A DNA stretch of 64,000 nucleotides, from the IMG/VR virus record IMGVR_UViG_3300020463_002275, positions 117,935-181,934 of that record, one strand, 5' to 3'. Shown here one piece after another: positions 21,837 to 41,125 of this stretch. Under the pieces are notes generated by a model that worked only from the letters and a program-made list of their open reading frames with translations, made no database searches and was not told the origin of the DNA. This stretch comes from a virus. A program made the position numbers and the translations under genes. How positions within the stretch are numbered: the stretch's first letter is position 1; each line of letters starts with the position of its first letter.

Positions 21837-22793
21837 ATGGCATCATTAGAAGCATTAATCAAAGCGAAATCACCTAGTTCAGCAGAGGACAACTTAGAAA
21901 CAGGTAGAATTTACAGTTTCACTGAAGGTAATACTTACACCAAGTTTTGTAAGTGTTCATGCTGGTGTCCATGTTCAAACGGTACTGCAATAATTGAAGT
22001 TTGGGGCGCAGGCGGCTCAGGCGCAAAGATGTGTTGCTGTGGTAATGGATTACCAGGTAACTCAGGCGCATATTCAAAAACAACAAAAGTAATGACAACA
22101 TCAGATTACATGTACGGTTGTACAGGGTTTGCATGTGGTAACTCAGACGCACTATGTTTTAGAGGTTGCTCAGAACCAACAGCGGTTTGTATGGTAGCGG
22201 CCGCAGGAAACAGTTGTATGTGTGCCAGAGGCGGCAAAGGTGGAGTAAGTATTTGCTCAACATCACCAAGCATGTACTGTTGCTTTAGAGCAAACGGATT
22301 TTGTTATACTAACACAGGACCAAACTGTGGTACAATATGTAATCAGTGTAGCGGACAATGGGACGCTATTGCATATGGTGGAGATTTAAACAGATGTGGA
22401 AACATATCATGCATGGGCTTTCATGGTTGCTATCCGTCATGTGTATGTTTATTTAGAGGCATGGTTGCGTTTCCTCCAGGAATGATTGCAGAGTGCGGTG
22501 GAGTTGTACAATACGGTATGTCAGATGACTCATCACACTCACGTTGGTCAGGAATGGGACAATTTGAAGCAACTGCCGCAATTAACGGTACAGGTAGATC
22601 ACCAGGTCAAGGGTTAACATGGAAAGCATGTTACCAAGGTGATACTAGTTGTGGTTGTTATAATACAAACGGTTGTCAAAGTACAATGCCATATGGCGTA
22701 GGTGGTCCAGGACCTCAACCTTGTCCAGGCGTGAGAGATCACGCAACACGTGGTGGTATGGGTGCAATTAGAATTAAGTTTATAGAAAGTTAG
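21837..22793 (+). CDS. Cys/Gly-rich tail protein
   Basis: 318 residues with about 33 cysteines, many in CxC, CC and CCC groups (KCSCWCPC, KMCCCGNG), plus about 55 glycines. The segment AIIEVWGAGGSG matches the start of the Gly-rich domain found in many phage tail proteins. Paralogous to the 22809 product and to the fragment at the window start. GGAG lies ahead of the ATG. There is no signal peptide. The Cys content is too high to be incidental; it suggests either metal binding or disulphide locking after release from the cell (inference). The Gly-rich sections recall T4-like adhesin tips, but the family is not established. Confidence 0.7.
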   Translation: MASLEALIKAKSPSSAEDNLETGRIYSFTEGNTYTKFCKCSCWCPCSNGTAIIEVWGAGGSGAKMCCCGNGLPGNSGAYSKTTKVMTTSDYMYGCTGFACGNSDALCFRGCSEPTAVCMVAAAGNSCMCARGGKGGVSICSTSPSMYCCFRANGFCYTNTGPNCGTICNQCSGQWDAIAYGGDLNRCGNISCMGFHGCYPSCVCLFRGMVAFPPGMIAECGGVVQYGMSDDSSHSRWSGMGQFEATAAINGTGRSPGQGLTWKACYQGDTSCGCYNTNGCQSTMPYGVGGPGPQPCPGVRDHATRGGMGAIRIKFIES

Positions 22794-22808: not shown

Positions 22809-23765
22809 ATGCCAGGATTAAAAGCATTATTAGCAAGCAGAGCGTCCCCGTTCACTGAGACAAACCTTGAAAAAGGTAAGGTATGGTCGTACTCTAACAT
22901 TGCTACATATTCAACGTATCCAGGTTGCTTTTGTTGGATATCACCAGGATCAGGAGCAGTTACATTAGAAGTATGGGGTGCAGGCGGAGGCGGTTCGAGA
23001 ATGTGTTGTTGTTCAGCAACAATATCAGGTAACTCAGGCGCATACGCAAGAAAAGAACTTACAGTAGCATCAGGCTGTTGGATCTGCGGACACGCAGGCA
23101 AAAGTTGTCGAAATGGTAGTCTCTGTCATAGAGGCTGTTCAGAACCAGGCAAAGTTTGTTGGACAGGTAACAGCGGATCAAATGGCTGTATGTGTGCTCA
23201 GGGCGGTTGGTCAGGAGCAAGTTGGTGTACAACAGGAACTGCACGTAGATGTTGTTTCTCAGCAAACAGTTGGTGCTATACAGGATACAGTGGCTATTGT
23301 GGTCTTGTATGTAATGCATGTAACAACAGTTGGAAAAACAGTGCATACGGCGGAGATATCAATCGAGGCGGTGTAAACAGTTGTGTAACTTTTTGGCATT
23401 GTTATCCAAACTGTAACTGTTCAACTATCCATCACACTGCATTGCCACCAGGCATGTTTAGTGAATGTGGCGGTGTTGCATCTTATAGTTTAGATGATGA
23501 TAACGGTCACGGTAGATGGTCTGGACAGGCACTAAATGGTTACCAATCGGCACTAAATTCTCTGTCAAGAATGCCAGGCGGTGGTACATATTGGTCAAAC
23601 TGTTGGAACGGTGTTCGAGCATGTGGTTGTTATGATACGCAGGGTTGTTCAATGTATGTGCCACACGGTTCAGGTGGTCCAGCGGCGACTCCATGTTCGG
23701 GTGTTAGAGATAACGGCTGGGCAGGTGGCGATGCCTTAATTAGAATCAAATACTTAGAATCTTAA
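22809..23765 (+). CDS. Cys/Gly-rich tail protein, paralogue
   Basis: 318 residues, the same length as its upstream neighbour, with about 30 cysteines. Shared landmarks are TLEVWGAGGGG, RMCCCS, HRGCSEPGKVC, GCMCAQGG, PPGMFSECGG, CGCYDTQGC, a conserved final GVRDNGWAGGDALIRIKYLES-like end, and an N-terminal amphipathic LKALLASRASPFTETNLEKG. The interior diverges, with many Trp/Ser/Asn substitutions where the neighbour has other residues, as expected for adhesin diversification after tandem duplication. Starts 15 nt after its neighbour with AGGAG upstream. Confidence 0.7.
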   Translation: MPGLKALLASRASPFTETNLEKGKVWSYSNIATYSTYPGCFCWISPGSGAVTLEVWGAGGGGSRMCCCSATISGNSGAYARKELTVASGCWICGHAGKSCRNGSLCHRGCSEPGKVCWTGNSGSNGCMCAQGGWSGASWCTTGTARRCCFSANSWCYTGYSGYCGLVCNACNNSWKNSAYGGDINRGGVNSCVTFWHCYPNCNCSTIHHTALPPGMFSECGGVASYSLDDDNGHGRWSGQALNGYQSALNSLSRMPGGGTYWSNCWNGVRACGCYDTQGCSMYVPHGSGGPAATPCSGVRDNGWAGGDALIRIKYLES

Positions 23766-24592: not shown

Positions 24593-25561
24593 ATGACTAG
24601 AAGTAAAGCATTTTTTCTAAACGGTGGCGCAGGACGTATGCTATGTTCAATACCTGCACTTGAATTATATGAACAAAAGTCAGGTGATAAAGATTTTGTA
24701 ATAGTATGTGAAGGCGGTACTGACATGTTTAAAGGTCATCCTAAATTACATAAACGTGCATACGATCCTTGGCACAAAAACTTATTTGAAGATATTATCA
24801 AGCATAGACAGGTAGTAAATCCAGAACCATATCAAGTATGGGAATATTACAATCAAAAATGTAATTTATCACAAGCATTTGATATATTACTAAATGATAA
24901 GGGTGTAAGAAAATTAGATAAACCTTATATTAATTTAAGCAAAGACGAAATGCTAGTTGGAAGAAAACTAGTAAACGAAGTTAAAGAAAAAATTAAAAAA
25001 GAAAAAGTAATTGTAGTTCAGCCGTTTGGACGAGGAATCGAAATAATGGACGATACTCCAATTGACACTACTGCACGTAGTTTTGAATTCAAAGATTTAA
25101 AATCATTACTTAAAAAATTAGAAAAAGATTATGCTATTGTAATGATGAGTGAAATGAAAATGGAACTAAAAGGCGAAGGTATTAAACAAGAAGTAGCAAT
25201 GCCTGAAGGACTGTCGTTACGCCAGTGGGCAGGAATGATAAAATTTTGCGATCATTTTTTAGGTTGTGACAGTGTAGGACAACATTTAGCATATGCAGTT
25301 GGTACTCCAACCACAGCAGTAATTGGTGCAACTTTTCCTAGCAACGTAAGTTATCCAGGTAAAGAAGGAATCAAAGTTATTGACTTAGGAATGAATGATA
25401 GATTATATGATCCTATTAGAATTACAGTAGATGAAACTGTTAACAGACATAACGAAAAACTTATGCAAATGGATGATGCTATTCAAGATTATGTAATTGG
25501 TGTAATTAAAGGCGAAATTGATCCAGACGCAGAGGAAAAAACTGCTGAAGCAAAAAAATGA
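24593..25561 (+). CDS. GT9-type (heptosyltransferase-like) glycosyltransferase
   Basis: 322 residues, GGAG upstream. The N-terminal Rossmann start FFLNGGAGRMLCSIPALELY and the C-terminal donor half with KVIVVQPFGRG and HFLGCDSVGQHLAYAVGTPTTAVIG fit the GT9/ADP-heptose:LPS heptosyltransferase pattern (in which D.GPMH.A.ALG.P is typical; here D-S-V-G-Q-H). The usual N-terminal heptosyltransferase signature is weaker than in host enzymes, so the donor may not be heptose. Overlaps the next gene by 4 nt (ATGA). Its likely role is transfer of a sugar to LPS or a phage glycan. The presence of ADP-heptose synthesis genes 13 kb away makes heptose a reasonable donor (inference). Confidence 0.7.
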   Translation: MTRSKAFFLNGGAGRMLCSIPALELYEQKSGDKDFVIVCEGGTDMFKGHPKLHKRAYDPWHKNLFEDIIKHRQVVNPEPYQVWEYYNQKCNLSQAFDILLNDKGVRKLDKPYINLSKDEMLVGRKLVNEVKEKIKKEKVIVVQPFGRGIEIMDDTPIDTTARSFEFKDLKSLLKKLEKDYAIVMMSEMKMELKGEGIKQEVAMPEGLSLRQWAGMIKFCDHFLGCDSVGQHLAYAVGTPTTAVIGATFPSNVSYPGKEGIKVIDLGMNDRLYDPIRITVDETVNRHNEKLMQMDDAIQDYVIGVIKGEIDPDAEEKTAEAKK

Positions 25562-26421: not shown

Positions 26422-28224
26422 ATGAGTAAACCAGTTTGGATAGCAGGTATAGCAAGAGGACATAACGCAGGCGTATGTTTATTAAAAGACGGCGAAGTAA
26501 TATTTGCTGTTGAAGAAGAACGTTTAAGCAGACAAAAATACGACGGTGGACCATTTGCAAGTATAGTGAAAATACTTGAATATACAGATAAGTTAGATTA
26601 TCTTGTTGTTGCCCATACACAAAAATTACAAGAAACAGCAGGTAGAGTTGATTATAGTGGTGATGATGTTTACACAGGATTAGCACGTAAATTAGGTTTG
26701 ATTGATAAAAAGAAAAATGCAACAACATATGAGCATCCACAAGTAATTGACCTTGCATTTATGCATCACAAACTTCATAGTGCTTGTGCATTTTATCGTT
26801 CAGGATTTGATAGTGCAGTAAGTGTTATTGTAGACGGAGCAGGAACTTTTGTTCCTATTGGCGTTAATAATGAACAAGTAATGAGTTGGGAAGTAGAAAG
26901 TATTATTGATTGTGATTATCCGGCTACATTTAATACTATGCATAAAGTTTACGGTACAAGAGACCCTATACCAGGCGGCGTTGTTCAAATGGACAGTACA
27001 CAGTTTGGTGAGAACGGACGTACACACTCAGCAATAGTAAGTGATAGAGCAGGTATTGTTAAAGCATATGAAGCGGCAACTATGTACTGCGGATGGCAAA
27101 GTATTGAAGCAGGAAAAACTATGGGACTATTTCCATACGGAAAACCTAACGATAAATTTCCAAAACTTTTTGATGACACAACAGATTATCCATTAACAAA
27201 TAGAAATATTGTTGTTCCAAATTATCCTAATGGTGCAATGATTAATGCAGGGTTATATGGAGAACTTGCACAATCAGGAAAGTCACCAGAAGATGATTTA
27301 ACTCTATTGCAGAATAGAAGAGATATTGCATATGCTGTACAAACAGAAACACAAGAACAAGTAACTGCTTTAATTAGAAATGCTGTAGAACTATCAGGTA
27401 AAAAAAATGTAGTAATTAGTGGAGGTTATGGACTTAATTGTGTTGCTAACTATCACTACCTAGAACAATTAAAAGATGAAGGTATTAAAATTTATGTTGA
27501 ACCTGTAAGTAATGATGCCGGCACAGCAATGGGTGCCGCTATGATGTTTTGGTATGGATTAGAAGACGAAACTGAAACACGTCAAACACAAACATTATAT
27601 CTTGGACCGCACAACAATTATACAAAAGAAGATATTATAACAAAAGCAGAAGAAGCAGGTGTAGAATTAACAGATGCAACTCATAAAGATGTTGTAAAAT
27701 TAATTACTGATAGAAATATTGTAACAATTTTCCAAGGACAAAGTGAAAATGGTCCTAGAGCATTAGGTAATAGAAGTGTTTTATATGATCCAACAGATCC
27801 AGATGGTAAGGATCATGTTAACAAAGTTAAACATAGAGAATACTTCCGTCCATTTGCAGGTAGTATACTACAAGATGATGTACATGAATGGTTTGATTTA
27901 CGCGGCATGGAAGATAGTCCTAGCATGATGTATGCTGTTAACTGTCAACCAGGCGTGGAAGAAAAAATTCCTGCTATTATCCATGTTGATGGAACATGTA
28001 GAATTCAAACTGTAACACAAGAACAAAACAAACATTACTATGATTTGATTAAAGAATTCAAAAATCAAACAGGTTGCCCAATTATTTTCAATACTAGTTT
28101 TAATTTAGGAGGAGAACCACTAGTTGAAACAGTTGAAGATGCTATTTGGACCTTACAAAATAGTGATATTGAATACCTTTACCTACCAGAATTTAATAAA
28201 TTAATTACGGTTAAAAACACATAG
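26422..28224 (+). CDS. NodU/CmcH-family O-carbamoyltransferase
   Basis: 600 residues, full length for the family. The N-terminal YrdC/Kae1-like ASKHA domain is visible as WIAGIARGHNAGVCLLKDGE, FAVEEERLSRQKYDGG, the metal-site HHKLHSACAFYRSGF, SVIVDGAGT, VVISGGYGLNCVANY and SNDAGTAMGAAM. The C-terminal carbamoyltransferase domain has GENGPRALGNRSVLYDP, REYFRPFAGSIL and IIFNTSFNLGGEPLVETVEDA. These enzymes move carbamoyl from carbamoyl phosphate via carbamoyl-adenylate to a hydroxyl of a sugar or natural product. As the third gene of a cluster with a glycosyltransferase and SGNH protein, its substrate is probably a sugar on LPS or a virion glycan. Confidence 0.92.
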   Translation: MSKPVWIAGIARGHNAGVCLLKDGEVIFAVEEERLSRQKYDGGPFASIVKILEYTDKLDYLVVAHTQKLQETAGRVDYSGDDVYTGLARKLGLIDKKKNATTYEHPQVIDLAFMHHKLHSACAFYRSGFDSAVSVIVDGAGTFVPIGVNNEQVMSWEVESIIDCDYPATFNTMHKVYGTRDPIPGGVVQMDSTQFGENGRTHSAIVSDRAGIVKAYEAATMYCGWQSIEAGKTMGLFPYGKPNDKFPKLFDDTTDYPLTNRNIVVPNYPNGAMINAGLYGELAQSGKSPEDDLTLLQNRRDIAYAVQTETQEQVTALIRNAVELSGKKNVVISGGYGLNCVANYHYLEQLKDEGIKIYVEPVSNDAGTAMGAAMMFWYGLEDETETRQTQTLYLGPHNNYTKEDIITKAEEAGVELTDATHKDVVKLITDRNIVTIFQGQSENGPRALGNRSVLYDPTDPDGKDHVNKVKHREYFRPFAGSILQDDVHEWFDLRGMEDSPSMMYAVNCQPGVEEKIPAIIHVDGTCRIQTVTQEQNKHYYDLIKEFKNQTGCPIIFNTSFNLGGEPLVETVEDAIWTLQNSDIEYLYLPEFNKLITVKNT

Positions 28225-35600: not shown

Positions 35601-37063
35601 CCAACGAAGGTCAAAATGGTAAATTAAAAACAGATATTGATGCAACACAAACAACCATACCGTTAGAAACAGTTGACTTCTTTCCAACTTCAGGTACAGT
35701 TTATATTGACAACGAACTTATAAGTTTTACAGGTACAGACACAGCAACTAATAGCATTACAGGTTGTACAAGACAGGCAACACTTACAAACTTCCAAGCA
35801 GGTGCGGCACGTAGTTACACAGCAGGAAATCCGGCGTCACATGATGCTAGAACAGGTGTAATTTTAATTAGTAATACAACAACACCACTAATATCACATT
35901 GGGGATCGGCGTTTATTACAGATGGCGGCTTTGATGAAGATCGTGGTTACATTTTCTCTTACACAGAACAAGCACTAACAGTTACAAATGTTAGACAAAC
36001 AGCATTTATGATAAGACTAGCACCTAGTGTATCAAACGCTATTATTGGTGACTTAGGAGATAGAGAATTACTTAACAGAGCACAATTACTACTAAGTTCT
36101 CTAGAAGTTACATCAGAAGCAAACTCAACAGGTTCTATTGTTATTGAAGGTATCCTAAATCCGCAAAACTATCCTACTAACCCAGCGTTGATTAGTTGGA
36201 CAGGATTAAGTGGACTTGCACAAGGTGGACAACCAAGTTTTGCACAGATTGCATCAGGTGGTGGTATTACATGGTCAACTGGTGCTACTACAACTACATC
36301 AAATATTACTGCACAAGCAGGAGTAAATGCTGTACTAGATTCAGGAATATATAGATCAAGAAACGGAAGTAGATATATCTATGTAAATGGTTCAGACTAT
36401 AGAGCAACATTTGGAACAGATAGTACAGATCCAGTATTAGGTAAAACAATTACAGGTAACAACATAAGATCCAATACAAGAGTTGACGGTGGTTATATTT
36501 CTGCAAGTGGAACTTATGGTTACTTATTCTTATCCCAGACACTTAGTGGAAACATTACTCAGAATACATCAAATGCAATGACAATTACATCACATGGGAC
36601 AGTAGAAAATGCTAACTTTGCATACATTCAAAAAGCAAGTTGGGAAGCAAGTGGTGGTAGAGATGGTACAGCAGTAAGCCCAACAAGTTCATCACCAACT
36701 TGGCCTGCTAACACAGTTATTAACAAAATTGAATTGGTAGACTTTGCTGGTACTGAATATTATTTGATTGAATTTAACAACGCCGCTAGTGGAGATTTAG
36801 TAGCAGGTAGTGGTACTATTACACTTGAATTTAGTTCACCACCCTACGGACAACCAGGTGAAACAGTTCTATCATTTATTGCACAGCCAGGTTCTCGTGC
36901 TGACTTAGATCTAAGTCAATTGAAAGAACTTACAAATACTACATTAGGTGGTAGAGGTACTTTTCCAAACGGTCCAGACGTATTAGCGATTAACGTGTTT
37001 AAAACAACAGGCACTGATGTTGAAGCCAACATTATTCTACGTTGGTCAGAGGCTCAAGCGTAA
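29636..37063 (+). CDS. 2475-residue structural protein with helical head and eight beta repeats
   Basis: The longest gene in the window. Residues 1-~420 are helix-rich and contain several units also found in the 16063 product (LLNSNKTFLQAE, MKSNRAFMISETKAFM, AKCERDTGLIIKSYLFDLRYGGN). Residues ~855-1555 carry eight repeats of roughly 85 residues with the core LGGxTPxNDLTITVxxVDxxGxIL (LGGVTPTNDLTITVSSVD, VGGLSPANDITITIDTVD, LAGATPTNDLTITISTVN and others). Later regions hold Ig-like or beta-sandwich segments and a short KTDIDATQTTIPLETVDFFP section. No enzyme motif was found. It is probably a very long baseplate or tail-fibre element. The 3' end overlaps the convergent 2OG oxygenase gene by 10 nt. 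Confidence 0.75.
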   Translation: MAKKKINNYKFKPGIGYVENLYPNAYALLNSNKTFLQAETGQFITSRVSDATAFQADLVSMIDDLEQEMVLGTTATQRLWGYIESQKSINQKTTRKRTIQRLKTGLTALSNVTGTYQTAIETAIDEIVDIAVNGFASAAVDLTTSERTGETEVNIGYAVARMKSNRAFMISETKAFMDADTPGNTVTTAATFETELGILIDCICQDVSTTANNLTKTINEEIYVNTTPGNRSLLSDGMTRLATVMKQIAEGATVARTTGNSLTQDTSGTSANTVLGDRCRQHILDTQSVVANGTTSSLPTPVYPNYSDEPAQGQSAATDLENNKTTVATNINAFYNYTFNQAKCERDTGLIIKSYLFDLRYGGNQKTYEYASKYWEQDVAQIDGTRYPETDTHTWLTELIRDYVFNKTTYPNEQTATTQTITGTDAEAGADTPITDLGSLVVTTIEGGLSARPAFVDTGAGYIKFPGNYDSSDILLITNTTDNEVIYSFNDVNSGGVTELATSFVSTNDYAYTEDEDFPAYLQTTDAITKVYLNKNTASMLAEDKLQIYVDTDELIIRPFEFGTDAIERNRTAEPQSMLDADFEYGLQPTKWSAIATMRGYPSVYEVPGTETSVISIISDSSAGTAGVGSSLITVTTAGAHGFELGDAITIKGLKQDVQGYSRAEGAFIIISVPNAISFQYYAKAKVGTSGNVNIEAEATQLRQAGFYTGASIGVPAFSVESNGSSGTIRPALTVGSGEDVIPFTVTVGLAPEIGAPLTASSGIALGTQVTGRVGTGGVAVTPVVTADYGPGSTQVDVQSTSGIQQNMAANKGDGTATLVNTVVGNTITLSDATTNDIKGNYVNYTAVEGQNIVSLGFGATFDVSRAGGNYTIDAIVNSGQDYSPNDVLIIQGEFLGGVTPTNDLTITVSSVDTGGEILTTSVSGTAFNGTGNFGNVTGTYLNGNGTGGLWNIGYTNGVFNNVTLSNPSFPSQNGTVSGGAGTGVLLDFVVTNNTYAVTVDPATAGVTGYSVYDIIQVSGNNLGGTSPNNDAQVTVTNVDSTGYPTGVSVTGNGGNATNNFTNVTYSTNNSGIGANLNIQTNGTTYTPVFTVTGTGFAQNDTVTVLGTQVGGLSPANDITITIDTVDTGGEILTFTTTGTAVNSHSYSGIGNGINLVGSGADFNVTINGLNETYGVTVGNAGNNYAPNQTITIPGTQLGGATPDNDLTITVTDVDNDSTLTVGGILTVNATGTAVKSTSGYAIGDRLKINGSSFTGGADTTNDAIIEVTSVDGTGGITNYTTTGTAPDGVQTYTAVTGTASLSGTNASFDVTRTGSTYTAVLNLAGANFVQNETIVILGTDLGGATTANDCTITVDSVDGSGAIQTLTPTGTAANVGLLSEQSAGSIVGNGATFNVALAAGSYTTTLAQAGQEYYPGQKFLVTGNLLAGATPTNDLTITISTVNATGGILTVSDSGSASTDVASFANVSANVASSTGNGFSLDILRDGTTADSSVGTYTFSLNQGGSNYQISDKIKIGGENLGGQGSIHDVQIVVDSIDSAGAVLTFTATGDAFAGTSFDLYSTVTVDTPTTGQLATSLDISFSALATLRINFDSAHGLVPGDTFITTVDSDDGSNNHDLAAGSFIATAIPSATSLTFTARAAGTIDATSDNINGTVYPRPDSFFIHRPFDGGVQLGTGGPQHGAQAIRQSKKYIRYQSGKGIMYTTGALFAPSYDLRSITASGVEIGATITVTCDDNDHGLQIGSSIKLIGIETVGYNGTYTVNDVIDERTFEVINTLNRLGNTTAVLSFGAQMSTYQWHGATVRSGVFDDQNGIYWEYDGTNLLCCQRTSTKQISGTGAITPDTNTVTGTNTRFRDQLKAGDRIVIRGMTHVVSAVTTQTQMTVTPDYRGVNTAVGTKICLVADKKVRQKDWNLDRMDGTGPSGYNFDPAKMQMIGIEYSWYGAGFIDYMVRGADGNFVYGHRIRNSNVNTEAYMRSGNLPVRYEITNEGQNGKLKTDIDATQTTIPLETVDFFPTSGTVYIDNELISFTGTDTATNSITGCTRQATLTNFQAGAARSYTAGNPASHDARTGVILISNTTTPLISHWGSAFITDGGFDEDRGYIFSYTEQALTVTNVRQTAFMIRLAPSVSNAIIGDLGDRELLNRAQLLLSSLEVTSEANSTGSIVIEGILNPQNYPTNPALISWTGLSGLAQGGQPSFAQIASGGGITWSTGATTTTSNITAQAGVNAVLDSGIYRSRNGSRYIYVNGSDYRATFGTDSTDPVLGKTITGNNIRSNTRVDGGYISASGTYGYLFLSQTLSGNITQNTSNAMTITSHGTVENANFAYIQKASWEASGGRDGTAVSPTSSSPTWPANTVINKIELVDFAGTEYYLIEFNNAASGDLVAGSGTITLEFSSPPYGQPGETVLSFIAQPGSRADLDLSQLKELTNTTLGGRGTFPNGPDVLAINVFKTTGTDVEANIILRWSEAQA

Positions 37064-37581
37064 ATATTAAAATTTACTATACAACGAGGATTATCAGTTG
37101 GAAATCCACCTGAGTGTAAAGTTTCTCCGTCAAATAAAACTATACGTCCTTTTTTAGGAGTAACTTTTTCTATTACTTTTTCTTTTTCAAAGAATACAGT
37201 ATCACCGTCACTATCATTTACATAATAAATTAAACCTAAATGTTTTTCAGGTCGATCTGTATGAGGAGCATAAAAGTCAAGTTTAGTTTTATGCGGCACT
37301 GTAATAAAAAGTCTTGCGGCAATGATATCAATAAAATCAATGTTTAATTCTGCAAAAACAGTTTGCGGTATTTTTGAAAAATTGCCATAGTGTTCAGTAA
37401 GTTTTGTACTACTCTTTAATACATGTTCAAAACTTACAGGTATGTTACCACCATCAAATGCAGTTGGCTCATATTTACAAACTAAAGGTAGTGTTGCATT
37501 AATTTTTGTACTACCAAAAACAAGTGTGTGATAGTAATCCTGTAATTCTTGTGGTATAAGATTATCTTTAACTATTATCAT
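37054..37581 (-). CDS. 2OG-Fe(II) oxygenase
   Basis: 175 residues. The double-stranded beta-helix signature is present: AARLFITVPHKTKLDFYAPH followed by TD gives the HxD iron ligands (PHTD), TLHSGGFPTDNPR gives the distal His, and the Arg before CIVNFNIYA would bind 2-oxoglutarate. It is the last gene of the minus-strand heptose operon and overlaps the gmhB-like gene by 14 nt, so a sugar or a lipid-linked sugar is a possible substrate (inference). T4-like marine phages carry many such oxygenases of unknown substrate. Confidence 0.82.
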   Translation of the reverse strand: MIIVKDNLIPQELQDYYHTLVFGSTKINATLPLVCKYEPTAFDGGNIPVSFEHVLKSSTKLTEHYGNFSKIPQTVFAELNIDFIDIIAARLFITVPHKTKLDFYAPHTDRPEKHLGLIYYVNDSDGDTVFFEKEKVIEKVTPKKGRIVLFDGETLHSGGFPTDNPRCIVNFNIYA

Positions 37582-38203
37582 CTAGCATATCAACAAACGA
37601 AGAAAGGTTATCAAATACTCTTGTTGCTTTCCTAATATTTCTGTATGTAAATCTTTTGTTAATTAATTCTTCTGTTTCTTTCCCGTATCCTGTGCGAACT
37701 AATACAGGTCTTGCTCCCATCTTAAGAGCGGCTTTTAGATCTGATATTTTATCTCCAACAAAATATCCTTTATTAAATTTAACATGTTTTACTTCTTGTT
37801 CGCAACGCTTAAACATTCCTGTGTTAGGTTTTGCAAACATATCTTTTTTTGAACTACTTGCACTATAGTATAATCCGTCTATACTAGGACATCCTGCTAA
37901 TCCTAATTGTTGAAACATATGTTCGTGTACTTTTTCAACATCTTCTTGTTTGTAAATGCCCTTTTCAATACCGCCTTGGTTGGTAATAATAACAATTTTG
38001 TGACCTAGTTTACGTAGTTTTACTATTGCCTCTAAACTACCTTCTTCAAATTCCCAATCATCTACTTTATAAACATAATCGCCAATGTCTTTATTAATTA
38101 CACCGTCTCTGTCTAAACCAACTACACACTTAGGTGCAACATAATCTGGTCTATAGACGTCGATGTTAACATCATCACTCCATACTATCTTCGGGTCGCT
38201 CAT
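37568..38203 (-). CDS. gmhB: GmhB-like HAD phosphatase (heptose bisphosphate phosphatase)
   Basis: 211 residues. HAD motif I is GLDRDGVINKD (nucleophile and acid Asp of DxDG), motif II is IIITNQGGIEKG-like (VIITNQGG), and motifs III/IV are KPNTGMFKR and FVGDKISDLKAALKMGARP. This is the layout of D-glycero-D-manno-heptose-1,7-bisphosphate 7-phosphatase and its HisB-N relatives. The Cys/His zinc loop seen before the KPxxGM motif in E. coli-type GmhB is replaced by YYSASSSKKDMFA. In the pathway it would act between the HldE kinase and nucleotidyltransferase steps. Overlaps the cupin gene by 29 nt. Confidence 0.82.
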   Translation of the reverse strand: MSDPKIVWSDDVNIDVYRPDYVAPKCVVGLDRDGVINKDIGDYVYKVDDWEFEEGSLEAIVKLRKLGHKIVIITNQGGIEKGIYKQEDVEKVHEHMFQQLGLAGCPSIDGLYYSASSSKKDMFAKPNTGMFKRCEQEVKHVKFNKGYFVGDKISDLKAALKMGARPVLVRTGYGKETEELINKRFTYRNIRKATRVFDNLSSFVDMLDDNS

Positions 38204-38600
38204 CTGCTACTTTTCCTTTTAACTCTTCTAACAAACCTTCTTGGCTATCACCTGGAATAAGCCTATAATTATCTTCTACACTATCAGCAGTACTTACTTC
38301 TGTGATGCTACTGTTATCTTCTAATGCTTCTAACTGATGCGGCAATAATGGTTTATTACGCCACGTCATTCCTTGTGTTAATGTTTGACTGAATAATGTT
38401 GCAGTCTTTGTATCAATCCATCGTACAATAAAACTACCTTCATTTACAAACCAACTTTCATCTTTTTCTTTATGAAAATGCATACTAAATTTATTTCCTT
38501 TTTTAGTAAACACCATCATTTTGCCACAATATAAATCATTGGTAGCCCAAATTATTTCATAGCCCCAACCTTTATCTACTTTACCTTCTAATCTTGCCAT
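38175..38600 (-). CDS. Cupin-domain protein (sugar isomerase-like)
   Basis: 141 residues from the preferred ATG at 38600. CCTCC at 38614-38618 (GGAGG on the coding strand) lies 13 nt before it and only 1 nt before the alternative ATG at 38612. The cupin core is WGYEIIWATNDLYCGKMMVF, KFSMHFHKEKDESWFVNEG and LLPHQLEALED: two His and a Glu in the HxH...E motif plus a distal His. It resembles the C-terminal cupin of mannose-6-phosphate isomerase/GDP-mannose pyrophosphorylase enzymes and WxcM-like proteins. Located between hldD and gmhB, it could be a sugar epimerase, isomerase or sensor in the same pathway. A GmhA-type sedoheptulose-7-phosphate isomerase is not in the window, and a cupin would not be homologous to it. 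Confidence 0.7.
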   Translation of the reverse strand: MARLEGKVDKGWGYEIIWATNDLYCGKMMVFTKKGNKFSMHFHKEKDESWFVNEGSFIVRWIDTKTATLFSQTLTQGMTWRNKPLLPHQLEALEDNSSITEVSTADSVEDNYRLIPGDSQEGLLEELKGKVADERPEDSME

Positions 38601-39529
38601 GTTTCTATCCATTCCTCCGGTTTGGTAAATTTAAACTCACCTATTGTTTTAATTAACTTTGTATTATCACTACAAGTATACTTTTGATATTGACTAACCA
38701 AATTATCAGGCATTGGTATAGGTTCTACTTTTGCATTATATTTGTTTGCAATACTATGTGCAATAGTTGTAAAACTTGTTGTTTCGCCTGTACCTACATT
38801 CCATATACCCATTTCATCAATGTTCATCATTTTTTCAATAATTTTACATACATCTCCTACGTATATAAAATCTCTTAAAAATTCACTACTGCCTACAAAT
38901 GGATGTACTTTGCCTGTTTCTTTTGCTTGGGCTTTAAACTTATGGAATACACTCATTTGATCACCTTTGTGTTCTTCGTGTTCTCCATATACATTAAAAA
39001 AGCGTAACCCTTTAATATTACATTTATAATCTTCCCATTTAATCATTTCTACACCACGATCAAATAAATATTTTGACCATGAATAAGGACTTTGTGGTTG
39101 CTTAGGTGCATCTTCTTGAAAATTTGTACCATCACCATATATACTAGCACTTGATGCATATATTAAATCAACTCCTTGCATGTCGCAAACTTGCATTAAT
39201 CTATGACTGAAATCTAAGTTTTGTTTTAAAACTTTTTCAACATCACGTTCTGTTGTGCTTGATATTGCACCCATATGTAAAACTTTATCAAATTGACTGC
39301 AATCAGGAACTACATTTTCAATAAATTCATACTCTGCTATACCGTGGCCTTTGCTCATGAGATACTTTTTTAAATTTTTTCCGATAAATCCATCGGCTCC
39401 TGTAATTAATATTTTTAATTTATTCTTATTCATGCTTCTTTCTTTGTTATTCCTACGTGATGCTTCTAAACTCATTTTTAATTCTTGTTCTTCCTTTGGC
39501 CACTCTTCATGAAAATATTTTTTATTCAT
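38588..39529 (-). CDS. hldD: HldD-like NAD(P)-dependent sugar-nucleotide epimerase
   Basis: 313 residues. An extended SDR: the Rossmann GxxGxxG is ITGADGFIGKNL (~residue 40), VLHMGAISSTTE follows, the catalytic Ser is in YASSASIYGDG, and the catalytic YxxxK is SPYSWSKYLFD. GLRFFNVYGEHEEHKGDQMS and FLRDFIYVGDVCKI are typical of ADP-L-glycero-D-manno-heptose 6-epimerase. The ATG at 39529 overlaps the hldE stop by 8 nt. It adds ~32 polar residues before the Rossmann fold, so the ATG at 39433 (MNKNKLKILITG) is a possible alternative start. The role is the last step of ADP-heptose synthesis. Confidence 0.85.
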   Translation of the reverse strand: MNKKYFHEEWPKEEQELKMSLEASRRNNKERSMNKNKLKILITGADGFIGKNLKKYLMSKGHGIAEYEFIENVVPDCSQFDKVLHMGAISSTTERDVEKVLKQNLDFSHRLMQVCDMQGVDLIYASSASIYGDGTNFQEDAPKQPQSPYSWSKYLFDRGVEMIKWEDYKCNIKGLRFFNVYGEHEEHKGDQMSVFHKFKAQAKETGKVHPFVGSSEFLRDFIYVGDVCKIIEKMMNIDEMGIWNVGTGETTSFTTIAHSIANKYNAKVEPIPMPDNLVSQYQKYTCSDNTKLIKTIGEFKFTKPEEWIETWQD

Positions 39530-40664
39530 TTATTTTCTCTAATATATTTGTTGTTGAAAAATCTTCAACTGTAGGCACAATATAAACGCTAGTTAAATCA
39601 TGTCCTACTACTTCATTAACTTTGTAATCACCACCTTTAACGATTAGGTTAGGCTTTATTGACTTGATTAAATCATATGGTGTATCTTCACTGAATACAA
39701 TAACTTCATCTACCCAAGGTAATATTTCTAATTGTTTCTTACGTGTTTCTACAGGATTAATTGGACGATTATCTCCTTTTAATCTCCTTACACTACGATC
39801 ATCATTTAATCCTACAATAAGTTTGTCGCCTTTTTCTTTGGCGGCTTTTAATAATTCAAAATGACCAGTATGCAATATATCAAAACATCCATTTGTAAAA
39901 ACAACAGTGCTTTCTAAATCTTCTTTTTTTAATTTATATGTGCCACTATGTTTAACACTTTCAGTTGAACCTCTTATAGCAATTTCTAAGCATTTTTTAT
40001 AATCATAACCTTTTACCAAACCAAAAACAAGTCCTGCTAAGAAACAATCTCCTGCTCCTGTTACATCTGATACTTCTACATTTTCTACAGGTATATTATA
40101 ATCTACACCGTCAATATTAGCAATTACTTCTTTACCTGCATTAGTTGTTATAATATTTCCTTGCCACTTGTCAAATCCAAATTTGTAAAATTCGTTATAG
40201 TTTGGTTTTACTAGCCATGCACCTTCGTATTCACTTGCATTACGCTTAGGATCAACAATTATTTTACAGCCAAATTTATTAATATGATTTATTATTTTTT
40301 GTGTATGATCTAATGCACCTTTATTGTAATCACTTAGTATCACATAATCATATGGTGCAAAATCACTTTGCAGTATTTGTTCTAAAACAGCATCTGCATC
40401 AGCATGTTCATCTTCGTCTAATCTAGTTATATAATGTCCATCTGATATTATTCTTGTTTTAGTACTTCTATTTTGATTATTATGTACAAGTGTTGCATCT
40501 ATATCTAAATTTTTTAAATTTTCTAATACAAGTCCTGCACCGCCTAGCGAAGTTGATACTTTATCAATATTAACTATAGGCACTGGTGCCTCTGGACTAA
40601 TTCTTGAACTAGTGCCATACACATATTTGTCTACAATAACATCGCCGAATACTAAGACTTTCAT
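39522..40664 (-). CDS. hldE: HldE-like bifunctional heptose kinase/ADP-heptose synthase
   Basis: 380 residues, compared with ~477 for the E. coli enzyme. Residues 1-~245 form a compact ribokinase-type kinase (VLVFGDVIVDKYVYG, STSLGGAGLVLENL, and the anion hole DVTGAGDCFLAGL). Residues ~247-380 form a cytidylyltransferase-like domain: VFTNGCFDILHTGHFELL with the HxGH motif, GLNDDRSVRRLKGDNRPI and IVKGGDY. This is the RfaE/HldE order, which converts heptose-7-phosphate to the 1,7-bisphosphate and, after GmhB, heptose-1-phosphate to ADP-heptose. It has its own consensus sigma70 promoter, with the ATG 5 nt after the -10. First gene of a five-gene overlapping operon. Confidence 0.92.
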   Translation of the reverse strand: MKVLVFGDVIVDKYVYGTSSRISPEAPVPIVNIDKVSTSLGGAGLVLENLKNLDIDATLVHNNQNRSTKTRIISDGHYITRLDEDEHADADAVLEQILQSDFAPYDYVILSDYNKGALDHTQKIINHINKFGCKIIVDPKRNASEYEGAWLVKPNYNEFYKFGFDKWQGNIITTNAGKEVIANIDGVDYNIPVENVEVSDVTGAGDCFLAGLVFGLVKGYDYKKCLEIAIRGSTESVKHSGTYKLKKEDLESTVVFTNGCFDILHTGHFELLKAAKEKGDKLIVGLNDDRSVRRLKGDNRPINPVETRKKQLEILPWVDEVIVFSEDTPYDLIKSIKPNLIVKGGDYKVNEVVGHDLTSVYIVPTVEDFSTTNILEKINE

Positions 40665-40669
40665 ACTAT

Positions 40670-40698
40670 ATAATAACTTACTTACTAAGGTTTGTCAA
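40670..40698 (-). promoter_or_regulatory. Sigma70 promoter for the hldE operon
   Basis: On the minus strand: TTGACA (40698-40693), a 17-nt spacer, TATTAT (40675-40670), then 5 nt to the ATG at 40664. The -35 lies in the 3' end of the Nudix gene. The predicted start of transcription is at or beside the A of the ATG. Confidence 0.82.
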
Positions 40699-41125
40699 GT
40701 AAATTCAAAACTTTTGTTACAGTTTCTAATTTACTTTGATTAATTTTACTTTGCAATGTATTACGCAATCCGTGATGTAAAGGTTTAGGCCAACTTCCGC
40801 TCTTAACCCAAGCGTATCCATCATGTTCTCCGTTTAGAATAGGAATAAATTCTTCTTTCACTGCACACAAATAAGTATGAAATTGAAATTGATGGTCAGT
40901 TGATATAAAAGTTTCAAGAGGAATAGTCTTTTCAATCTTTGGATTAAATCCTACTTCTTCTTTTATCTCACGCTTTAGTACTTCCCAAGGTGTTTCTTTG
41001 CCTTCACCTGTACCTCCAACTAAACCCCATAAGTTCTTAGTTTTACCTTTAGTACGATGTAATAGTAAAAAGCGTTGTGTTTTTAGACTGTAGAACAGAG
41101 TTCCACTACAAATTATCTTGTTCAT
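40685..41125 (-). CDS. Nudix hydrolase
   Basis: 146 residues. The Nudix box GX5EX7REUXEEXGU is complete: G-TGEGK-E-TPWEVLK-REIKEEVGF. The N-terminal FYSLKTQRFLLLHRTKGKTKN and LWGLVGG are typical of nucleoside-diphosphate-X hydrolases. It starts 8 nt after the gp15 stop on the same strand and so is probably read with gp14-gp15. Its 3' end carries the -35 of the hldE promoter. The substrate is unknown; the adjacent ADP-heptose operon makes a sugar nucleotide one option, a modified dNTP or capped RNA others. Confidence 0.88.
   Translation of the reverse strand: MNKIICSGTLFYSLKTQRFLLLHRTKGKTKNLWGLVGGTGEGKETPWEVLKREIKEEVGFNPKIEKTIPLETFISTDHQFQFHTYLCAVKEEFIPILNGEHDGYAWVKSGSWPKPLHHGLRNTLQSKINQSKLETVTKVLNLLDKP

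Follow-up and report, generated by a model that had tools for sequence, protein, structure and literature searches.

Heptose genes have been met in phages before. A 2010 study drew attention to lipopolysaccharide (LPS) gene clusters of cyanophages, with T4-GCs 304, 305, 307 and 308 among them, and left their function open (PMC3037559); rfaE was reported in pelagimyophages, and a cyanophage genome announcement lists heptose genes that include a "phosphoheptose isomerase". According to two commentaries on it (PMC11461863, PMC11573728), the 2024 survey by Tang et al. extends nucleoside diphosphate-heptose enzymes to viruses and reportedly finds the phosphatase absent from them; the commentary makes no mention of a cupin. 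Here, we describe an operon in a marine, T4-like virus (IMG/VR record IMGVR_UViG_3300020463_002275), located in the final 64 kb of its 181,934-bp record (positions 117,935 to 181,934; this whole stretch of 64,000 nucleotides is called the window). Our results support the view that the operon is a compact gene set for an adenosine diphosphate (ADP)-heptose-type pathway, with relatives of HldE, HldD, and GmhB. The cyanophage kinase, nucleotidyltransferase, and epimerase and the pelagimyophage rfaE had already made phage heptose genes known; what looks new is a cupin that is an apparent replacement for the isomerase GmhA.

Heptose enzymes of the viral operon

An original prediction, made from the letters of the window, described five overlapping minus-strand genes at 37054-40664. 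Both the coordinates and the overlaps of 8-29 nucleotides (8, 25, 29, and 14 in succession) were confirmed. It had overlooked a sixth gene, a Nudix hydrolase, which belongs to the unit. The operon, in the direction of its transcripts, reads as follows:

40685 to 41125, minus strand: Nudix hydrolase (PF00293, E 6e-15)
39522 to 40664, minus strand: HldE-like fusion of 380 amino acids (profiles, fold comparison, motifs)
38588 to 39529, minus strand: HldD-like ADP-heptose 6-epimerase, a short-chain dehydrogenase/reductase (profiles, PDB match, active-site residues)
38175 to 38612, minus strand: cupin, proposed GmhA replacement (metal site, fold, archaeal genome context)
37568 to 38203, minus strand: GmhB-like HAD-IIIA phosphatase (profiles, PDB match, HAD motifs)
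37054 to 37581, minus strand: 2-oxoglutarate-Fe(II) oxygenase (PF13640, E 2e-7; phrog_274, E 2e-27)

The Nudix open reading frame (ORF) lies upstream of HldE on the same strand, across a 20-nucleotide gap, and we count it in the operon because it directly precedes HldE in nearly all related IMG/VR loci. The oxygenase was found in just part of the related loci and is an optional member; its stop overlaps a converging tail-fibre ORF by 10 nucleotides. By scanning viral contigs for HldE, we confirmed at least 590 stretches with the fused gene and fetched 80 loci for gene order. The usual order among these was Nudix-HldE-HldD-cupin-GmhB, with the oxygenase optional and GmhB not within reach on some contigs. 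Because the operon recurs in dozens of IMG/VR viral contigs at ~60-98% protein identity, its arrangement is not a product of chance. The expectation that full sets are unusual in phages was only partly sustained: cyanophages with a split kinase and nucleotidyltransferase, a cupin, and HldD are known, and the fused gene is as widespread as the scan indicates, whereas a GmhB-type phosphatase was present in 7 of 50,697 phage records and does seem rare. Two contigs (L094 and L095) assigned to a Neomarinimicrobiota metagenome-assembled genome (MAG) also carry the entire operon and are probably viral contigs binned into it.

For cyanophage LPS genes, Sullivan et al. considered it possible that they are non-functional cargo padding the genome for headful packaging (PMC3037559). 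We find this very improbable for the present operon, in which the gene order is conserved, the ORFs are intact and overlapping, and the catalytic residues are invariant over dozens of contigs.

The identities first proposed for the HldE-, HldD-, and GmhB-like proteins, the cupin, and the oxygenase were borne out by profile searches, and that of HldE by fold comparison as well. For the three named enzymes, support came from profile searches, structure comparison, and active-site residues. The HldE-like protein joins a PfkB-type heptose-7-phosphate kinase (residues 1-252) to a heptose-1-phosphate adenylyltransferase (residues 249-380) and matches PRK11316 (E 4e-88), TIGR02198 (E 3e-53), and TIGR02199 (E 3e-49). 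Its AlphaFold model (predicted local distance difference test, pLDDT, 85) has Burkholderia cenocepacia HldA (4e8z/4e8y, E 3e-20) as its top PDB fold matches, with ribokinases behind (8e-13), and a PDB sequence search returned HldC/HldA-type relatives. The motifs SRISPEAPVP, DVTGAGD, HTGH (the HxGH, at residues 265-268), KGGDY, and STT are present. We did not find the STTR5 arginine, position 5 of (F/L)XXGXSTT, in the window's protein, which reads TVEDFSTT, or in relatives with KGYSTT, KGHSTT, and DDYSTT. Because the nucleotidyltransferase has no such arginine, its sequence suggests an ADP-linked product rather than one linked to cytidine or uridine diphosphate.

The HldD-like protein matches TIGR02197 (E 1e-69), and its top PDB match is Escherichia coli HldD (1eq2, E 4e-40). 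Y149, K153, and K188 are the equivalents of Y140, K144, and K178, so both catalytic bases are kept; the true start may be a later in-frame ATG ~32 codons downstream. The GmhB-like protein matches PRK08942 (E 5e-40), TIGR00213 (E 8e-28), and the PDB GmhB structures 4pnh and 2gmw, and it keeps the HAD motifs DRDG (31), TNQ (74), K (125), and GDKISD (150). A HisB-N histidinol phosphatase, which the original prediction had named as a possible closer match, was ruled out, as the GmhB profile PRK08942 lies clearly ahead of HisB-N (E 3e-14) and HisB (E 1e-15).

All three enzymes score under the NCBIfam equivalog cut-offs and are therefore divergent members of their families. The kinase domain is shorter than the 315-position bacterial domain, missing a segment near its N-terminal half, and the GmhB-like protein has no zinc-loop cysteines, as in aligned phage homologues. 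These departures count against a heptose pathway and would fit an operon that makes another activated sugar, either a hexose or a different heptose, with the likeness to HldE, HldD, and GmhB merely ancestral. Yet such an operon would have to unite three separate heptose-specific families, with HldA, HldD, and GmhB as their best matches in the PDB, and it conserves the SRISPEAPVP motif as well as the two catalytic bases of HldD. We consider it improbable that the product is some other sugar.

The cupin as a candidate phosphoheptose isomerase

The absence of GmhA from the window, noted at the outset, extends to the virus as a whole: a profile search found no SIS_2/GmhA domain in the 181,934-bp record, nor was a SIS_2 domain found in five complete cyanophage genomes or 12 related IMG/VR contigs. 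What did not survive was the view that the isomerase step is absent and the cupin an accessory, since the cupin is best explained as the isomerase. The step from sedoheptulose-7-phosphate to D-glycero-D-manno-heptose-7-phosphate isomerises a ketose to an aldose and gives a manno product, the same chemistry as that of cupin phosphomannose isomerase. The cupin's metal-site set of H45, H47, E52, and H92 (His-His-Glu-His) is invariant in phage and archaeal homologues, as are K31, K50, E105, D114, and a further T. Its model (pLDDT 88) is a cupin barrel with sugar isomerases among its PDB fold matches, including D-lyxose isomerase with D-fructose or D-mannose and the phosphomannose isomerase of T. 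kodakarensis (template modeling score 0.81 by target). We set aside the PHROG name, cysteine dioxygenase, as a family-level label given the four retained metal residues and these matches. Where related viral loci extend far enough, the cupin nearly always accompanies HldE and HldD. Similarly, all 29 listed phage records with kinase and nucleotidyltransferase (at least 80% cover) were among the 35 cupin records, one Salmonella contig being left out of this count. Our literature searches found no publication linking a cupin with phosphoheptose isomerase.

Cellular homologues, identified when genomes were scanned with the cupin profile, place the family in heptose loci of archaea. Four archaeal loci (L141, L143, L144, and L147) encode a heptose kinase that carries the cupin as a C-terminal fusion, and in another (L145) the cupin forms the middle domain of a GmhB-cupin-nucleotidyltransferase fusion; TIGR02198/TIGR02199 identities of these fusions were checked on L141 and L145. 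No SIS_2 domain was found in the archaeal genomes carrying the fusions. We then took the phylum surrounding one cupin-bearing archaeon (Woesearchaeota-type) and drew 371 of its genomes, 79 of which had a heptose kinase at >200 bits. Among these 79, a cupin (>100 bits) was present in 21, GmhA (SIS_2 >80 bits) in 40, both in none, and neither in 18 (Fisher p=8e-9). The exclusion held without the six genomes first reached through the cupin scan (p=7e-7). These p-values are inflated by the relatedness of the genomes, and a kinase tree was built for that reason. On this tree, the isomerase type switches 9 times, with at least 4 switches forced by well-supported (starred) branches. Gene order agrees: cupin-HldD-kinase occurs in 6 loci and GmhA-HldD-kinase in 9, and kinase-cupin in 9 and kinase-GmhA in 4. 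Cupin and GmhA take the same gene slot in archaea, which use the cupin family interchangeably with GmhA. This interchange was computed directly, as were gene order, family membership, catalytic residues, and the absence of GmhA.

Several observations weigh against the cupin as isomerase. Quercetinase and oxalate decarboxylase are its top fold matches, so that generic members of the fold rank as high as the sugar isomerases or higher, and phage and archaeal cupins share just ~30% identity. Binatota-type relatives (L101-L120) include one, in L101, adjoining a GDP-mannose 4,6-dehydratase gene, hinting at a phosphomannose-isomerase-like role. A Marinoscillum isolate and a Rickettsiales MAG have lone cupins with 71-75% identity to the phage protein (L092:7989-8372, L093:7986-8372), neighboured by genes for radical SAM proteins and methyltransferases. 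With Binatota and orphan Marinoscillum members outside heptose loci, the family is not exclusively heptose-linked. The score limits were chosen after the scores had been seen, hence a loose variant, under which 5 of the 79 genomes had a cupin and some SIS protein (p 1e-5); in each of the five, the cupin, the SIS protein, or both did not adjoin the kinase. Finally, the sampled genomes are MAGs of unstated completeness, 18 of the 79 having neither isomerase.

Some of these points would also suit a virus that relies on host GmhA to supply heptose-7-phosphate or to process sedoheptulose-7-phosphate, leaving the cupin to act otherwise, for example as an epimerase or modifier of the completed nucleotide sugar. 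The phage has no GmhA, some relatives of the cupin belong to other sugar loci, and cupins are generally known to include sugar epimerases as well as ketoisomerases. However, in cellular genomes with the same kinase, cupin and GmhA replace one another in the same slots and at the same fusion position, and a downstream sugar modifier should co-occur with GmhA, which at strict scores the cupin never does. Reliance on host GmhA is therefore unlikely, in our judgment.

Taken together, it is quite likely that the operon encodes an ADP-heptose pathway with the cupin as a non-orthologous replacement of GmhA. The following account of cupin chemistry, pathway flux, and product use is inferred. Standing in for GmhA, the cupin would turn sedoheptulose-7-phosphate into D-glycero-D-manno-heptose-7-phosphate, from which the HldE kinase domain would yield heptose 1,7-bisphosphate, and the GmhB-like HAD protein would take off the 7-phosphate. 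The HldE nucleotidyltransferase domain would attach adenosine monophosphate, HldD would epimerise C6, and a phage or host glycosyltransferase would probably use the product as a decoration for the cell surface or virion. More broadly, it is likely that the cupin family represents a second sedoheptulose-7-phosphate isomerase, which arose independently of GmhA, took over from it several times in archaea, and serves as the standard first enzyme of the viral pathway, which is thereby complete.

If true, this would supply the first step that the viral pathway had seemed to lack and give a testable function to a cupin family labelled "cysteine dioxygenase" in phages. GmhA-based searches would then miss many heptose-making organisms or viruses, a gap of some consequence given that ADP-heptose activates innate immunity in vertebrates. 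A signalling role of this kind for the viral genes, raised in the original prediction, is unsupported by the present analysis.

Possible use of the product and other genes of the virus

Two genes elsewhere in the window bear on where the heptose might go:

24593 to 25561, plus strand: possible GT9-like (heptosyltransferase family) protein, tentative (PF01075, E 1.7e-4, 21.4 bits against a cut-off of 22)
26422 to 28224, plus strand: NolO-like carbamoyltransferase (phrog_1601, E 1e-169)

The GT9-like protein is a tentative candidate, from its sequence, for the user of ADP-heptose. We did not name it a firm heptosyltransferase, because its Pfam score falls just short of the threshold and searching the PDB with its profile gave no match. 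Its cyanophage homologues (44-52% identity) directly precede carbamoyltransferase and heptose genes. The gene is paired with the carbamoyltransferase in all 80 loci, with heptose genes no more than 4 kb away in few only. Since the homologues of both genes directly adjoin heptose genes in P-SSM2 and S-CAM1, it would be reasonable by analogy for LPS or the virion to be decorated with (carbamoyl-)heptose, and glycosylation of the host surface or virion by the operon's product is plausible.

As for the rest of the virus, the terminase is closest to those of Pseudomonas PA5oct-like phages (54%), and psbA was not found. A second nucleotide-sugar cluster at 7.6-10.2 kb of the virus record (L086:7650-10213) encodes a cytidylyltransferase, a phosphomannomutase-type HAD protein, and a short-chain dehydrogenase/reductase. 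Several radical SAM proteins form a run on the minus strand at ~41-51 kb of the record (L088:905-10824), a 4531-amino-acid ORF occupies L089:6240-19835 on the minus strand, and tandem cysteine-rich paralogues of 318 amino acids (21837-22793 and 22809-23765 in the window) stand beside the tail-fibre region.

Comparison with known heptose systems

The closest described relatives are the cyanophage heptose clusters of P-SSM2, S-CAM1, S-T4, P-TIM68, and S-SSM7 (T4-GCs 304, 305, 306, 307, and 308), which likewise bring together nucleotidyltransferase, kinase, cupin, and HldD relatives. A cupin isomerase would explain why T4-GCs 304, 305, 307, and 308 travel together in cyanophages, a question open since 2010 (PMC3037559). 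These clusters differ from the present operon, with its fused HldE, in that kinase and nucleotidyltransferase are separate genes and the gene order is another. In place of this virus's GmhB, they have a HAD-type protein of ~112 amino acids, annotated as "phosphoheptose isomerase" (GC306; copies at L001:10113-10457, L002:10083-10406, L003:11924-12271, L004:11272-11610, and L005:11097-11432). We ruled this protein out as a true isomerase: it carries the HAD motifs DxDGT, an FTARG-like motif II, GKP, and DDKG, its Pfam matches are HAD-type though weak, and those genomes gave no SIS_2 match. Across loci with kinase and cupin, GmhB was present in 35, the small HAD protein in 5, and both in none. 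Because of its HAD motifs and because it did not occur together with GmhB in these loci, the small HAD protein is probably the heptose bisphosphate phosphatase of cyanophages. The isomerase annotation is apparently wrong, a database error that recognition of the small HAD-type protein would correct.

Compared with the virus-encoded enzymes of Tang et al., as the commentaries describe them, heptose nucleotidyltransferases are common to both, and the present operon adds a GmhB relative. In the bacterial ADP-heptose pathway (GmhA-HldE-GmhB-HldD), the kinase/adenylyltransferase, phosphatase, and epimerase are homologous to those described here, with catalytic motifs kept. The phage set differs in having a conserved cupin and no GmhA, a shortened kinase domain, and a GmhB without the zinc loop, and in being encoded by a virus. 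Finally, the phage cupin is like the known cupin aldose-ketose isomerases (phosphomannose isomerase and D-lyxose isomerase) in fold, four-residue metal site, and expected chemistry, but by sequence it is another subfamily, and it is genome context alone that points to its substrate.

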